NCBI GenBank assembly: GCA_027002405.1
Contig: JALWZT010000258.1
Coordinates: 1-46,217 of the forward strand
DNA: 46,217 bases
DNA from: Anaerolineae bacterium
GTDB lineage: Bacteria > Chloroflexota > Anaerolineae > J102
Direction of reading: 5' to 3'
Part shown: one piece after another, positions 1 to 46,217 of the stretch
Position numbering within the stretch: position 1 is the stretch's first letter
How the letters are laid out: each line of letters starts with the position of its first letter
Program-made: the position numbers and the translations under genes
Notes under the pieces: model-generated
Told to the model about the DNA's origin: nothing
Seen by the model: the letters and a program-made list of their open reading frames with translations, nothing else
The model's database searches: none

Positions 1-178
1 TCGGGGCTGGGGGCCTTTGGCCGCCTGTCTGCCTGCGCAGACAGGCCCAACCGGGCGGAAAACATGTCCCCGAAGGGGGACATGCGGCGGAACGCCCCTA
101 GACCTGAATTTATTCGGCGTACTCGCGAGGGGGCAGCGAGGAAGCCCCCTCGGCGTACCGCGGTAAACCAACAGCATC
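1..178. mobile_element. Right part of R1 element (MITE-like), copy 1, truncated by window edge
   Basis: Positions 1-127 match 2818-2944 almost base for base (offset 2817), so this is a second copy of the R1 element described at 2760-2962. Its right terminus, read on the minus strand, begins GATGCTGTTGGTTTAC, matching the R1 terminal inverted repeat. It contains small hairpins (CATGTCCCC/GGGGACATG and GAGGGGGC/GCCCCCTC). Relative to the other copy it has about 35 extra bases at 128-163, bounded by CGGCGTAC direct repeats, so the other copy may have lost them by slippage. No coding potential is credible. Confidence 0.7.
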
Positions 179-250
179 CTGAACCCTCGGGCTCCGGGTA
201 CAAAGCCCTTTCGGGGCTCCCGTCGCCAGACCAATAGGTGCCAAGCGCCT

Positions 251-2668: not shown

Positions 2669-2996
2669 GCCGGGGGATAAAGTCCCCCGGCTAAAAAACA
2701 GCGCCCCTACGGGGCTAGCCGGATTCATCCGGCGCCGTTCTGTAGCCCGGCGACTTCATGATACTGTTGGCAAACTCCATGCAGGCTGCTGGGCGCCTTG
2801 GCCCCGCCGACTCGAAGTCGGGGCTGGGGGCCTTTGGCCGCCTGTCTGCCTGCGCAGACAGGTCCAACCGGGCGGAAAACATGTCCCCGAAGGGGGACAT
2901 GCGGCGGAACGCCCTCAGACCTGAATTTATTCGGCGTACTCGCGCAGTAAACCAACAGGTTCACTTCATCGCCGGGCGGGCGTGGTAGACGCCAAA
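2669..2996. repeat. REP-like palindrome array RA1 (interrupted by an R1 element)
   Basis: After 80 bases with no visible feature comes a string of hairpins: GCCGGGGGA/TCCCCCGGC, GCCCC/GGGGC, GCCGGAT/ATCCGGC, and the left half of GCCCGGCGA/TCGCCGGGC. The last hairpin is split at its loop by the insertion at 2760-2962; its right half and the tail CGGGCGTGGTAGACGCC resume at 2970. Intact relatives lie at 5731-5795 and 17128-17245. The first hairpin is well placed to end transcription of the response regulator, but no T-run follows it. Confidence 0.8.
2760..2962. mobile_element. R1 element, MITE-like, full copy (203 bp)
   Basis: The ends are imperfect inverted repeats: GATACTGTTGGCAAAC on the left and, on the other strand, GAACCTGTTGGTTTAC on the right. 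It is flanked by the 7-bp direct repeat ACTTCAT (2753-2759 and 2963-2969), which in uninterrupted arrays occurs once, in the loop of the REP hairpin. The interior carries short hairpins and no believable reading frame. Other copies are at 1-178 and from 46143. It looks like a non-autonomous element moved by a transposase encoded elsewhere. Confidence 0.75.
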
Positions 2997-3029: not shown

Positions 3030-3159
3030 TGACAATGTCATATGACGTCATTCCGAGGGAGCGGAGCGACCGAGGAATCTAGCGAAGCGCCCTTCGGGCT
3101 GGATTCCTCCTCCCTTCGGTCGTCGGAATGACGTGTTTAGAGGGAATTTGACATTGCCG
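3030..3159. mobile_element. E1 hairpin element (130 bp) with ATTCCGAGG-type stem
   Basis: A long hairpin (ACGTCATTCCGA at 3045-3056 pairing with TCGGAATGACGT at 3123-3134) lies within outer inverted repeats TGACAATGTCA and, on the other strand, CGGCAATGTCA. It is flanked by near-identical 8-bp repeats AACTGACT (3022-3029) and AACTGATT (3160-3167). The 90-bp inner hairpin recurs in inverted orientation at 29966-30055 with about three differences. Short ORFs here, typically reading SEGA/RSE-type peptides, are artefacts of the repeat. Confidence 0.65.
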
Positions 3160-3190: not shown

Positions 3191-3264
3191 TCTTCATCAC
3201 CGTCATCCCCGGGCAAAGCGCTTATGGTGCCCTTTCCCCATCGTTGACACCCTGGAGGTCATTC

Positions 3265-4416
3265 GTGCGCGTATCGGTTTTACAAGAAAATCTGGCTAAG
3301 GGCCTTGCCATTGTGGGTCGAGCCGTGGCCACCCGCAGCACGCTCCCCGTGCTCAACAATATCCTGCTCGAAACAGAGCACGCCCAGCTTAAGCTTTCGG
3401 CCATGGATATGGAGATCGCGATCAACTGTTGGGTGGGAGCCATGATTGAAGATGAAGGGCGTATTACGGTGCCCGCGCGGCTGCTGACCGACTTCGTCAA
3501 CTCCCTGCCCAAAGAACGGATCGACATGGTGTTGCAGCCCCGCACCCAGACTTTGCATCTCCGCTGCACCCACTACGAAGCCAATATCAAAGGCATCGAT
3601 GCCAATGAATTCCCCATCATCCCCACCTATCAAGGGGATATGGAAGCGCCCAGTGTGGAAGTCGCGCCGAATAAATTGCGCCGGATGATCGATCAGGTCG
3701 CGTTTGCCGCGTCCAAAGATGACAGTCGGCCCACATTCACCGGGGTTTACACCCATCTGGAAGGGGATAAGCTGACCATGGTGGCCACCGATGGCTTTCG
3801 GCTGGCTGTGCGCAGCACCTTGCTGGAAGAGCCCGCGTCCACGGGCATGGGGGTGATCATTCCTGCGCGCACCCTTTCGGAACTGGCCCGCATCATCGGC
3901 GCTTTGAACTTGAGCGATGAAGAGGGGGTCGAACTCATCTTCTCTCAAGCCCGTAACCAGATCATGTTCCACATGCCCGGGGTCGACTTGATAAGCCAGC
4001 TCATCGAAGCCAATTTCCCCGATTACCGCAAAATCATCCCCACCTCCTACAACACCCGGGCCGTGGTGGATTCTCATGAATTCCTCAATGCCATGAAAGT
4101 GGCCGACCTCTTTGCCCGGGACGCGGCCCGCTCTGTCAAAATCGCGCTGGAACCTGGGCAGCCGGGGAAGATCGTGCTCACTGCGACCAGCGCGGAATTG
4201 GGCGACAATGTGACAGAGATCGAGGCCATGATTGAAGGGGATGCCATGCACGCGACCTTCAATTCCAAATACATGATCGACGTGCTTTCGGTCATCGAAA
4301 CCCCTCAGGTGGCCTTCGAAGCGGTCTCGGCCACCCGGCCCGGGGTCTTCCGACCCGTGGGGGGCTCGCCCGAGGACGAATACGTCCACGTGATCATGCC
4401 CATGAGTCCGCGGTAA
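3265..4416 (+). CDS. dnaN: DNA polymerase III beta subunit (sliding clamp)
   Basis: A 383-residue clamp of normal family length, with the three-fold repeated clamp fold. It opens VRVSVLQENLAKGLAIVGRA, has SRPTFTGVYTHLEGDKLTMVATDGFRLAVR in the central domain and ends in VHVIMPMSPR, the usual VxxLIMPMR-like tail that lines the partner-binding pocket. It tethers DNA polymerase III to DNA. The start is GTG at 3265 because GGAGG (3254-3258) lies six bases upstream and the protein then aligns with family N-termini; an in-frame TTG at 3244 lacks this support. dnaA and recF are absent from the window, so the usual dnaA-dnaN-recF order is not visible. A glycosyltransferase follows 19 bases downstream. 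Confidence 0.96.
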   Translation: MRVSVLQENLAKGLAIVGRAVATRSTLPVLNNILLETEHAQLKLSAMDMEIAINCWVGAMIEDEGRITVPARLLTDFVNSLPKERIDMVLQPRTQTLHLRCTHYEANIKGIDANEFPIIPTYQGDMEAPSVEVAPNKLRRMIDQVAFAASKDDSRPTFTGVYTHLEGDKLTMVATDGFRLAVRSTLLEEPASTGMGVIIPARTLSELARIIGALNLSDEEGVELIFSQARNQIMFHMPGVDLISQLIEANFPDYRKIIPTSYNTRAVVDSHEFLNAMKVADLFARDAARSVKIALEPGQPGKIVLTATSAELGDNVTEIEAMIEGDAMHATFNSKYMIDVLSVIETPQVAFEAVSATRPGVFRPVGGSPEDEYVHVIMPMSPR

Positions 4417-5730: not shown

Positions 5731-5840
5731 TGCGGGGCTAGCCGGATTCATCCGGCGCCGTTTTTTAGCCCGGCGACTTCATCGCCGGGCGGGCGGGGTG
5801 GCCCCAGACCTCGGAGGTCTGCGCAGACCCTCCGAGGTCT
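5731..5840. repeat. REP-like array RA2, intact, with a 35-bp palindrome
   Basis: It reads GGGGCTAGCCGGATTCATCC, then GGCGCCGTTTTTTAGCCC and an uninterrupted GGCGACTTCATCGCC hairpin. This shows the pre-insertion target of R1. It is followed by a near-perfect palindrome (5806-5840) made of AGACCTCGGA and TCCGAGGTCT arms around TCTGCGCAGA. The remainder to 5950 is a GCAAGT-type word array (5848-5883) and a divergent fragment of the R2 end (5884-5940) with a GCCAT/ATGGC hairpin. A hairpin here probably ends the glycosyltransferase transcript. Confidence 0.8.
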
Positions 5841-5950: not shown

Positions 5951-6064
5951 ACGTCATTCCGAGGGAGCGAAGCGACCGAGGAATCTAGCGAAGCGCAAAA
6001 AACACGGCATGGCGCTCGCTTCGCTCGCTAGATGCTTCGCTCCCTTCGGTCGCTCAGCATGACG
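5951..6064. repeat. ATTCCGAGG-type hairpin repeat
   Basis: The left arm starts ACGTCATTCCGAGGGAGCG and the right arm ends with the CTTCGGTCGCTCAGCATGACG half. Arms AGCGAAGCG and CGCTTCGCT pair internally. This is the sequence type that gives false SEGA/RSE peptides in many genomes. It overlaps the last codons of the membrane protein read from the other strand. Confidence 0.75.
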
Positions 6065-8951
6065 AACATCTGTGGAAATCTGCGGTCCCATCTGCGGGTA
6101 TCTGCGTCCCCATTTTCGTCCGTATCGGCGCGCTGCCGTTCGTGGTGCACACATCCCACTGCACACGCATCACCCCCAGGGTGGGTGTGGCCGCGGTGAA
6201 GCCCTGGCCCACGACCACGGTCACGGGCCACAGGTCCGAGACCTGACTCAAGGCCGTGCCGGGTTCCGCGCCTTTGACGCCCACAAACCCATGGGCCCGG
6301 CGCAGATGCCCGCGCACATCATCCACCACCCCCAGGGTATGCAAGGCCTGGACCGCATCCTCGCCCAGACTCAGGGCCGCGGCATCCCGCACAGCCCCTG
6401 CCACCATCGCGCCCGCGGGCAAGGCCTGGATCCAGGCCGCCATGGCTGCACTGGCCTGGGGCGCCTGGCGAGGATCATGGGTATCGAAATGCGCCGATTC
6501 GACAACCCGGCCCGTTGTCGGATCGATCCAAACCAGGTTGTACCCCCGTTGATTGGGGCTCACGTCCACGCCATTGACGAAAATATGCCCAAAATCCCCG
6601 GTATCTTTGCCTGCACTGCGCACGGTGATATGGAACGGACTCTGGACCCCCGTCGCACCTACGGTCATATCCTGGACGCCCAGGGCAGGGTCCTGGTGCG
6701 GGATGAGGCTGGGATCAAAGGAACGATGGGCATGCAGGAGAAGATGGCGAGGAAACCCGTTGCGCGCGGGGGGGAGTTCGAAGGTGAGGGTATGGATGCC
6801 GGGGTCGAGATCGCGATGGGCCAGGTCCTGACCATCCAGGCGCAGGTCCAGGCTCTGGGGACCGGGGGTGTACAGGGTCAACGTAAGGGTGGAGGCATGA
6901 TCGCTGGCCGGAAGCAAAAGCTCCGCATCGGGCCTCACCGCCCATAGAATGGAAGCTCTCCCCCATCGGGCAGGCACGGCCCAACCATCATCGAGATAGG
7001 TAGCCAGCCCCCGGTCCCCAGGGCGCATATCCAGCCGGGTGAGAGGCACGGTTTGGGCCTCGTAGCGGGCCACATCCCCTTCCACCCCTTGCAAGGTCAG
7101 AGGAAAGATGCGCCGAAGGTGGGATTCAAAATCGGGAGGGACCTTATCCCGATGCACCATCACGGTATGGATGTTGAGAAAGGTCAACAAGTCGGGCCCC
7201 AAGGCCCGGGCCCGCTCCAGATCATGAGAAGGCACCTCACGCCCATCCTGCAAGGCCACCACCACACCGATGACGGGGTTTTCCAAAAAATACTGGAACT
7301 TCTGCTCCGGGTTCCGACTGGTGTTGCCCCCCAATAATGGCTTGCCGTGGTATGTCTGCCACCACTGCTCGAACATGATGATCACATCGGATTTGCCGAA
7401 CACATGAAACCCATTGCGCCAACCCACCGGCAGGTCCAACAGGGCATCCTGTCGAGGGTCCGCGACCACCGCCGCATACGCAGGGGGCAGGCGAAAATCC
7501 GAAAGAGGCAGGGGGATGCTGAGATGTTCGAACAAGATCAGCCCGGCCAACAAGCCGGCCCACCCCACGCGGCGGATGGGCGTGCGCGCGCGGGCCAAGA
7601 GGCTCCATCCCCCCAACCCGACCAGCAGACTCAACCCAAGAAAAACCATGACACTGTAGCGGCCGGGATAGCGATTGGCCTGGAAAAAAGGGATTTTGAT
7701 CAGCCAGGCGAAGATGCCGGGGATGCCGGTGGCATACCCCCGCACCCGAATCTGGGGCCCGAGAGCCGCCCAGGTGAAAAATAAAGTGAGTCCGGCCACA
7801 GCCCACACCTGCCAGCGCTTCCGAAAGACCCACAAGCCGATCAGGGTCAGCACCCAAACCCCATAGCCCGGGTAAATATGCTGCCCCTTGTTCACCATGA
7901 ATTGGGAGCCATCAGGCCGGAGCGCGGAATTGTCGCTGAGCTGGCGGATGATGCCCCCAAACAGGGGATGAAGCTGGGTGGGGAAGAAAAAGCCCACCAG
8001 GTCCGCGGAGAAGATATCGGCAAAGCCCCGGCCTTCTACCAGAAAATCGCCGTGCACTCGCATATCGGGCAACATGTTGACCAGATAGGGGACCATGCCG
8101 AGGATGAACATGCCCGCAGCCACAGACGCGGTGATCAAAGGGGCCTTAAGCCCCGCCCCATCCCTGCGAACCAGATGGACACCCACCGCGGCCAAGGTAA
8201 CCCCCGCGATCAACAGGACGCCAAAGGTGCCGTACGTGAGCTCGGCCCAGGTCTGAAAAAGAAGAAAAAGCCCCAGGAAAAACCCCTCCCGCCAGGGGTT
8301 CGAGGTACGGCGCAGGCCCCGCAGGAGATACAGGGCGATAAAAGGCAACCACTGGGAGGACGCGATGTTGAACTGCCCCAAAGCCGCGTAGAACAACTTA
8401 GCCGACGCGAAGGCGTACAAAAGCCCAGCCAGCAGGGCCGCCAGATGGGGTAAGCCCGACCGGGGACGGTCCCCGGGCCAGGGCAGAAGCCGGAAAAACT
8501 GCAACGCCAAAAGATAGGTGCCCAGGCCGGAAAGAACAAAGCTGGAAAGCAGGACCAGATTGCTGGCCAGAATCAGGCTCCACGCGCTTTGCAAGGGGAT
8601 GCTGAGCGCGGCATTGAGCAACGTCAGGGTATAGAAAGCCAGGTTGATGCCGATGGGATGAAACATACTATCCCCTCGGAAGGGGTTATGCACCAGGCCC
8701 GTTTCACCGGCTCGGTCCACCCAACTGGTCTTCACCCACCACAGATTCCAGGCCAACGCGGGATCGTCGATCCCATCCCCGGGGACATGAGTGCGGATGT
8801 GGGCCACCAGGGGCCAGGTCAACCCCAAGGCCAGGAGGCTGAAAAACACCACCACAAGCCCCGCCCGCAGGAAAGGATGGTCCCAAAAGACCCGCTCCCA
8901 AGCCTTGAGATCGGCTGCATGACGTTGATGGGAATTCAGCGATGGCTCCAC
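6054..8951 (-). CDS. Large GT-C-like membrane protein with C-terminal soluble domain
   Basis: A 965-residue protein. The N-terminal half has roughly ten to twelve hydrophobic helices, including FLRAGLVVVFFSLLALGLTW and GLLYAFASAKLFYAALGQ. Its first loop carries an acidic pair (DGIDDPALAWNLWW) of the kind that binds metal and the lipid-linked donor in GT-C enzymes. The C-terminal roughly 400 residues are soluble and beta-rich. Such proteins usually move sugars from polyprenyl-phosphate donors on the outer face; that activity is inferred. The last ~35 codons (from about VMRVQWD) come from repeat DNA: an R2 fragment, CGCAGAT words and the 5951-6064 hairpin. The ancestral stop has therefore been replaced. 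Confidence 0.75.
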   Translation of the reverse strand: MEPSLNSHQRHAADLKAWERVFWDHPFLRAGLVVVFFSLLALGLTWPLVAHIRTHVPGDGIDDPALAWNLWWVKTSWVDRAGETGLVHNPFRGDSMFHPIGINLAFYTLTLLNAALSIPLQSAWSLILASNLVLLSSFVLSGLGTYLLALQFFRLLPWPGDRPRSGLPHLAALLAGLLYAFASAKLFYAALGQFNIASSQWLPFIALYLLRGLRRTSNPWREGFFLGLFLLFQTWAELTYGTFGVLLIAGVTLAAVGVHLVRRDGAGLKAPLITASVAAGMFILGMVPYLVNMLPDMRVHGDFLVEGRGFADIFSADLVGFFFPTQLHPLFGGIIRQLSDNSALRPDGSQFMVNKGQHIYPGYGVWVLTLIGLWVFRKRWQVWAVAGLTLFFTWAALGPQIRVRGYATGIPGIFAWLIKIPFFQANRYPGRYSVMVFLGLSLLVGLGGWSLLARARTPIRRVGWAGLLAGLILFEHLSIPLPLSDFRLPPAYAAVVADPRQDALLDLPVGWRNGFHVFGKSDVIIMFEQWWQTYHGKPLLGGNTSRNPEQKFQYFLENPVIGVVVALQDGREVPSHDLERARALGPDLLTFLNIHTVMVHRDKVPPDFESHLRRIFPLTLQGVEGDVARYEAQTVPLTRLDMRPGDRGLATYLDDGWAVPARWGRASILWAVRPDAELLLPASDHASTLTLTLYTPGPQSLDLRLDGQDLAHRDLDPGIHTLTFELPPARNGFPRHLLLHAHRSFDPSLIPHQDPALGVQDMTVGATGVQSPFHITVRSAGKDTGDFGHIFVNGVDVSPNQRGYNLVWIDPTTGRVVESAHFDTHDPRQAPQASAAMAAWIQALPAGAMVAGAVRDAAALSLGEDAVQALHTLGVVDDVRGHLRRAHGFVGVKGAEPGTALSQVSDLWPVTVVVGQGFTAATPTLGVMRVQWDVCTTNGSAPIRTKMGTQIPADGTADFHRCSSC

Positions 8952-15366: not shown

Positions 15367-15570
15367 TTTGGCGTCATCTAGCCGACCGAAGTGGCATCTG
15401 CCACGCCCGCCCGGCGATGAAGTCGCCGGGCTATAAAACGGCGCCGGATAATGGAGTTTTACAAATTAAACGGGTCATAGGCCTCATTCTATTACCGGAT
15501 TGTTTTGTAAACGTTCATAATCCGGCTAGCCCCGCAGGGACGCTGTTTTTAGCGGGGGGACTTCATCTCC
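15367..15570. repeat. REP-like array RA3, interrupted by a 64-bp insertion
   Basis: It carries CCACGCCCGCCCGGCGATGA and its partner GTCGCCGGGC, then GGCGCCGG, and after a 64-bp insert CCGGCTAGCCCCGCAG and AGCGGGGGGACTTCATC. The same order without the insert occurs at 17128-17245. The preceding stretch 15273-15366 has only the ino1 leader and a GCAAGG-type word run (15322-15345). Confidence 0.75.
15453..15516. mobile_element. 64-bp AT-rich insertion in a REP palindrome
   Basis: It is flanked by ATAAT (15448-15452 and 15517-15521). The ends are imperfect inverted repeats (GGAGTTTTACAAA and, on the other strand, GAACGTTTACAAAA). It splits a hairpin that elsewhere reads GCCGGATGAATCCGGC. It is much more AT-rich than its surroundings. 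It is too small to code for anything. Confidence 0.5.
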
Positions 15571-17127: not shown

Positions 17128-17245
17128 TCGTTTAGCCGACCGAAGAGGCGTCCACCACGCCCGCCCGGCGATGAAGTCGCCGGGCCACAAAACGGCGCCG
17201 GATGAATCCGGCTAGCCCCGCAGCGCTGTTTCTAGCCTCGGCGCT
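17128..17245. repeat. REP-like array RA4, uninterrupted
   Basis: This is the reference copy: CCACGCCCGCCCGGCGATGA, GTCGCCGGGC, GGCGCCGGATGAATCCGGC, TAGCCCCGCAGCGCTG. It shows the uninterrupted loop ATGAAGT targeted by R1 at 2759 and 46142, and the uninterrupted GGATGAATCC hairpin that is split at 15453. Confidence 0.85.
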
Positions 17246-43594: not shown

Positions 43595-46142
<2,548 letters not shown>

Positions 46143-46217
46143 GATACTGTTGGCAAACCTCGAACGGGCTGCCGGGCAGTCCGGCAGGGGCGGTGATCCG
46201 GCCGTTCGGCCCCCACC
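46143..46217. mobile_element. R1 element, left part, copy 3 (runs off the window)
   Basis: It begins GATACTGTTGGCAAAC directly after ATGAAGT in the loop of a REP hairpin, the same site as the full copy at 2760 but in the opposite orientation relative to the palindrome. The interior (GCTGCCGGGCAGTCCGGCAG) differs from the other copies but again forms hairpins. Confidence 0.65.

Follow-up and report, generated by a model that had tools for sequence, protein, structure and literature searches.

Several insertion sequences are already known to home to REPs, among them IS1397, ISRm22, ISPlr1 and IS110 types. ISRm22, an IS4-family element of Sinorhizobium meliloti, has all of its copies in REPs, at the palindrome axis and with a 6-bp direct repeat (PMC1525189). 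It is autonomous, encodes a Transposase_11 gene and occurs in 9-10 copies within one REP type (PMC1525189), whereas the element described here is gene-less, is represented by more than 100 ends, uses several REP types and is flanked by a duplication that varies with the length of the palindrome centre. IS1397, ISKpn1 and ISPsy8 (IS3 family) insert into REPs as here, but are autonomous. ISPsy8 also lies at the symmetry axis of a predicted hairpin, as our element does, but with a 3-bp repeat (PMC1525189). ISPlr1, an autonomous IS of the cyanobacterium Planktothrix, is restricted to GC-rich REP-like repeats with predicted stem-loop structures, much as here, but the direct repeats shown for it are ~10 bp (PMC4766695), unlike the 6-7 bp at our sites. 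The bacterial MITEs RUP, NEMIS/Correia, Nezha and MITEPsy1 are likewise short and gene-less, with terminal inverted repeats, a target duplication and mobilisation in trans. GTAG-tagged REPs, which have been reported in Chloroflexi, resemble our targets in carrying GTAG or ATAG at one end and in having 8-bp stems (PMC3733652), but here the REPs are the landing site and not the mobile element studied.

The DNA analysed here (the window, 46,217 nucleotides) belongs to an Anaerolineae MAG of 4.3 Mb in 363 contigs that is 98.6% complete (G000). On its plus strand, positions 2745-2977 read GCCCGGCG-ACTTCAT-[203 bp, GATACTGTTGG...CCAACAGGTTC]-ACTTCAT-CGCCGGGC. The 8-bp left arm of a type A REP (GCCCGGCG, 2745-2752) and its 8-bp right arm (CGCCGGGC, 2970-2977) enclose two copies of the 7-bp REP centre ACTTCAT (2753-2759 and 2963-2969), assigned from the sequence and from comparison of elements across the genome. 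Between them lies a complete element without a transposase gene (R1, 2760-2962), delimited by sequence and blastn. Pattern searches and alignment place its terminal inverted repeats at 2760-2770 (GATACTGTTGG, with a variable dinucleotide at positions 3-4) and, on the minus strand, at 2952-2962 (GAACCTGTTGG). These coordinates agree with those of the first-pass annotation, which had described a 203-bp MITE-like insert with inverted-repeat ends and a 7-bp ACTTCAT duplication. R1 sits between a response-regulator gene (1854-2585) and a dnaN-like gene for the DNA polymerase III beta-clamp (3244-4416).

Two further copies are cut by the contig ends. The copy at the right edge (46143-46217, plus strand) starts directly after GCCCGGCGATGAAGT, adjoining a type A half (GCCCGGCG-ATGAAGT, 46128-46142, plus strand), as had been noted; it belongs to subfamily R2, with the same ends as R1 and a different middle. 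The other, at 1-178 (plus strand; blastn match 1-127), has the right end CCAACAGCATC and adjoins the right half of a type B REP (CTGAAC-CCTCGGGC, 179-192, plus strand), identified from the sequence and the type B census. The window thus holds three copies in two kinds of REP, and not two copies with one and the same target as the first-pass annotation had counted. Pattern searches also found three empty, intact type A REPs, at 5768-5790 (plus strand), 15409-15431 (minus strand) and 17163-17185 (minus strand). Two of these had been recognised over part of their extent (5776-5790 and 17165-17183), and the one at 15409-15431 had been overlooked.

A search for plasmid matches returned none, an Rfam search of the window found no family, and viral contigs gave only seven 17-mer matches. 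A long palindromic repeat based on ACGTCATTCCGAGGGAGCGGAGCGACCGAGGAATC occupies positions 3045-3134, and similar text occurs in the genome of a sister species (G007, L113). The minus strand at 6054-8951 encodes a protein of 965 aa whose C-terminal domain is of the ILEI type (Interleukin-like EMT inducer), an unusual find in a bacterium.

The targets are short palindromes with a GTAG-like tag and a high copy number, as are GTAG-type REPs. Type A has the arms GCCCGGCG/CGCCGGGC around the centre ACTTCAT or its complement, and the genome contains 294 exact half-sites GCCCGGCGACTTCAT. Type B reads GCCCGAGG-CTGAAC-CCTCGGGC, with this centre or its complement, and has 42 exact half-sites. The tag ATAG, GTAG or TTAG stands at one end of 41 of 44 intact type A copies, and GTAG at 6 of 8 intact type B copies when read from the tagged side. 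Other REP sequences serve as targets in the sister species. As single-stranded DNA the REPs fold into hairpins, type A with a 9-bp stem and a 5-nt loop, so that the 7-bp centre consists of the loop and its closing A-T pair. The REP at 2745 had been described as split exactly at its loop; the insertion is indeed central, but the cut falls where the 8-bp arm meets the centre. An exact element end directly adjoins 20 of the first 100 type A sites (~20%) and ~12 of the first 30 type B half-sites.

We took a census of the family in G000 from pattern searches and fetched stretches of the genome. R1 has 42 blastn matches there, many of them 97-100% identical. The terminal inverted repeats match exactly 146 times (74 GATACTGTTGG and 72 GAACCTGTTGG) and the reversed-pattern controls never (0 and 0), so their abundance is not due to chance. 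A strict type A or B REP half adjoins 122 of the 137 distinct exact ends gathered with their context. Among the other 15, four adjoin a type A or B half with a single base changed, two lie in another REP type (CGGAG-CTAAAAC, CAGAG-CTAAAC), two belong to a single element that occupies a degraded palindrome (CCCGGTG-AGCTTCC...ACCTTCC-TCTTGGG) and two lie at contig ends, one of them visibly type A. Five are lone matches in gene-like, non-REP sequence without a partner end, about as many as expected by chance. The boundary thus falls at a REP centre for ~129 of 131 assessable ends, the opposite of a family whose copies mostly lie outside REP loops or lack the duplication, the outcome by which the first-pass annotation would have given up its proposal. 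Most unpaired ends are found in truncated copies or at distances of ~60-150 bp from a contig end. Many contigs of G000 end ~60-150 bp inside an element copy, which makes the MITE a main cause of assembly breaks in this MAG.

The pattern GGCTGAACGATACTGTTGG occurs in only two Anaerolineae MAGs of the genome contig collection, G003 and G007, both of the same genus (the collection may lack G000). Among 60 relatives, only G007 exceeds background clearly for the terminal inverted repeat pattern.

Perfect duplications flank 45 of the ~57 genuine two-ended elements in G000, and three more have one mismatch. Their length follows the target. In G000, perfect 7-bp duplications occur at 38 type A sites and at a single type C site (GTTTTAG), and perfect 6-bp ones at four type B sites. 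The G007 elements have 6 bp where the centre is CTGAAG, GTTCAG or CTTCAG and 7 bp where it is CTGAAGC, a centre represented by two elements. The 7-bp duplication first proposed for the family therefore holds for REPs with 7-bp centres and gives way to 6 bp in those with 6-bp centres. Over both genomes, the duplication equals the palindrome centre in 48 of 50 elements with intact duplications, and in two type A elements one duplication copy is a base short. Even a single arm sequence, CCCGGCG, is found with a 6-bp centre (CTGAAG) and with 7-bp centres (CTGAAGC, ACTTCAT), and the duplication matches each.

The elements are mostly 202-303 bp long, with the family ends GANNCTGTTGGCAAAC and GANNCTGTTGGTTTAC. 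An alignment of 70 elements from three genomes reveals two shared terminal stretches, one of ~30 bp (GANNCTGTTGGCAAACCTCAAGCAGG...) and, at the opposite end, one of ~17 bp (GANNCTGTTGGTTTACT); only the ends are conserved, and the subfamily middles are unrelated. Such conservation is expected if an enzyme acting in trans recognises the ends alone. The elements are short, multicopy and without a transposase gene, they carry the inverted repeat GANNCTGTTGG at both ends across subfamilies, and they have target site duplications and matching empty sites, as MITEs do. Eleven R1 copies at different sites have identical 195-bp interiors, which indicates recent movement. As RNA, R1 folds far more strongly than shuffled versions of it (z = -4.7), which fits a MITE rich in hairpins.

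We consider it highly probable that this is a MITE family moved in trans which inserts almost only at the centres of GTAG-type REPs and duplicates the centre, whether it is 6 or 7 bp long. Much of this can be read directly from the sequences, namely the target, the insertion point, the duplication, the two orientations, the empty sites and the conservation of the ends alone. A transposase supplied in trans would move the MITE, choosing the centres of GTAG-type REPs almost exclusively. It would cut both strands, each at the end of its own 8-bp arm, so that the stagger, and hence the repaired duplication, would equal the palindrome centre of 6 or 7 bp. The enzyme would be of the DDE type, since the elements combine terminal inverted repeats with a duplication. 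As the stagger varies with the centre, the position of each strand transfer would be set by its own adjoining arm. An extruded hairpin or cruciform, which gives such a stagger directly, would be the simplest substrate, whereas a rigid dimer bound to duplex DNA would be expected to prefer one spacing.

How the enzyme finds a REP may be explained in two ways, and trans mobilisation into REP centres is common to both. The transposase could read the REP as duplex sequence while tolerating 6- or 7-bp centres, and the hairpin would then be irrelevant to the targeting step. Nearly all targets have CCCG arms and a TGAA or TTCA centre, or a near variant of it, and sequence-specific targets are common among known insertion sequences. 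The arms nevertheless differ (GGCG, GAGG, GGAG, GCAG), and the centre differs in sequence, strand and length while the duplication tracks it. We give duplex reading a chance only slightly below even. Insertion at the exact centre of the REPs, with duplication of just that centre, suggests that the transposase aims at the geometry of a palindrome or hairpin and not at one fixed sequence, although the TGAA/TTCA of most centres and the CCCG of most arms leave room for recognition by sequence. As a full account, recognition of a hairpin or cruciform by its geometry, with the duplication read from the spacer by the adjacent stems and the terminal dinucleotide rewritten during transposition, is a more tentative proposal. 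As sub-mechanisms, recognition by geometry and recognition by sequence stand at about equal odds.

The REP-centred position could also be inherited, if a REP half, the element and the second REP half multiplied as a composite unit through RAYT activity, gene conversion or segmental duplication. The REPs do sit in longer repeated modules with shared flanks, one tandem duplicate pair occurs at C213, and G000 encodes two Y1_Tnp (RAYT-type) transposases on contig C199. The elements, however, occur in both orientations within the same REP (20:14 relative to type A), at least three REP types are used, and different subfamilies are found within one REP type. Matched empty sites exist as well; their flank consensus agrees with that of the occupied sites, and in one occupied-empty pair 113 of 113 bases are identical once the element and one duplicate are left out. 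The duplication length tracks the target, and neither Y1 gene is flanked by type A or B REPs: contig C199 has no convincing copy of either, only other palindromes. Together these observations make co-transport very unlikely. The two Y1 genes lie side by side (L184, G000:C199:1055-2340) with repeated palindromes TGGTCGCC-gcag-GGCGACCA, and probably represent a second, unrelated REP system.

Still less credible is an RNA-guided IS110/IS1111-type recombinase acting in trans. The IS110-family elements ISPpu9, ISPpu10, ISPa11 and ISRm19 do home to REPs, but direct repeats are absent from ISPa11 and 2 bp long in ISPpu9 and ISPpu10 (PMC1525189). The elements here have multi-base duplications of 6-7 bp with true terminal inverted repeats, and their subfamilies share no middle that could carry one conserved guide.

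Trans mobilisation into REP centres also has to accommodate elements whose flanks do not match. Of the remaining nine two-ended elements in G000, eight are flanked by halves of different REPs or by halves in inverted arrangement. Eight G000 elements combine a type B half with a type A half (seven of them B-left/A-right) and one has inverted type B halves, giving nine hybrid or inverted elements in all without a matching duplication (L031:1711, L050:1307, L051:1501, L058:463, L105:1618, L142:705, L157:2184, L158:2205 and L176:920). Type B and A REPs often stand in tandem, ~150-160 bp apart and in the same B-A order. The simplest cause of the hybrids is therefore recombination between elements in neighbouring REPs with deletion of the interval; assembly joins are another possible source. 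Some ISRm22 copies likewise have hybrid repeats, which were also ascribed to recombination (PMC1525189).

Positions 3-4 of each end (TA, AC, GG or TG) are ~30-fold more variable than the interior among 27 R1 copies of G000. In the window they correspond to 2762-2763 and 2959-2960. The dinucleotide varies independently at the two ends, even where the interiors are identical, and we found no correspondence between it and the target side or the element end. Our guess is that repair may copy the dinucleotide from the opposite end of the element or from a different copy.

A transposase with these ends was not found in a search of fragmented MAGs that covered the families PF01609, ISNCY_1 and rve. 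The PF01609 profile (DDE_Tnp_1 / Transposase_11), the hallmark of an IS4/ISRm22-like system, had no match in G000, G003 or G007, ISNCY_1 had none in G000 or G007, and the single rve gene of G000 lacks these ends. The transposases found in other relatives lack these ends. Within the families searched, the description of the element as non-autonomous is thus borne out. Multicopy insertion sequences are easily lost from MAGs.

Three long spans between terminal inverted repeats were considered as autonomous copies and rejected. In the 2040-bp span on C117 (L098:2172-4213), which is bounded by REP halves, a truncated R1 is joined to a SLFN_AlbA_2/RecG-like gene (550 aa) with no transposase domain, and a complete R1 follows. 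The 454-bp span on C87 (L095:6297-6750) is an R1 copy lengthened by internal DNA, among it a ~170-bp stretch close to one end. The long span on C164 resolves into a 212-bp element at its start and another terminal inverted repeat at the contig end.

REP-homing transposons are thus a known kind. The open-access literature searched yielded no account of a MITE restricted to REP centres, nor of a duplication whose length follows the palindrome spacer. What we provisionally regard as new is a high-copy MITE that uses several REP types and leaves a spacer-following duplication. REPs have been called hot spots of IS insertion mostly from a handful of copies each, and here there are dozens of two-ended insertions. 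Because the duplication follows the centre, a simple assay could separate hairpin-guided from sequence-guided targeting. Should the enzyme come to light, it would represent a transposase whose address is a short palindrome. For the family and its host, confinement to extragenic palindromes may permit a very high copy number with little harm.
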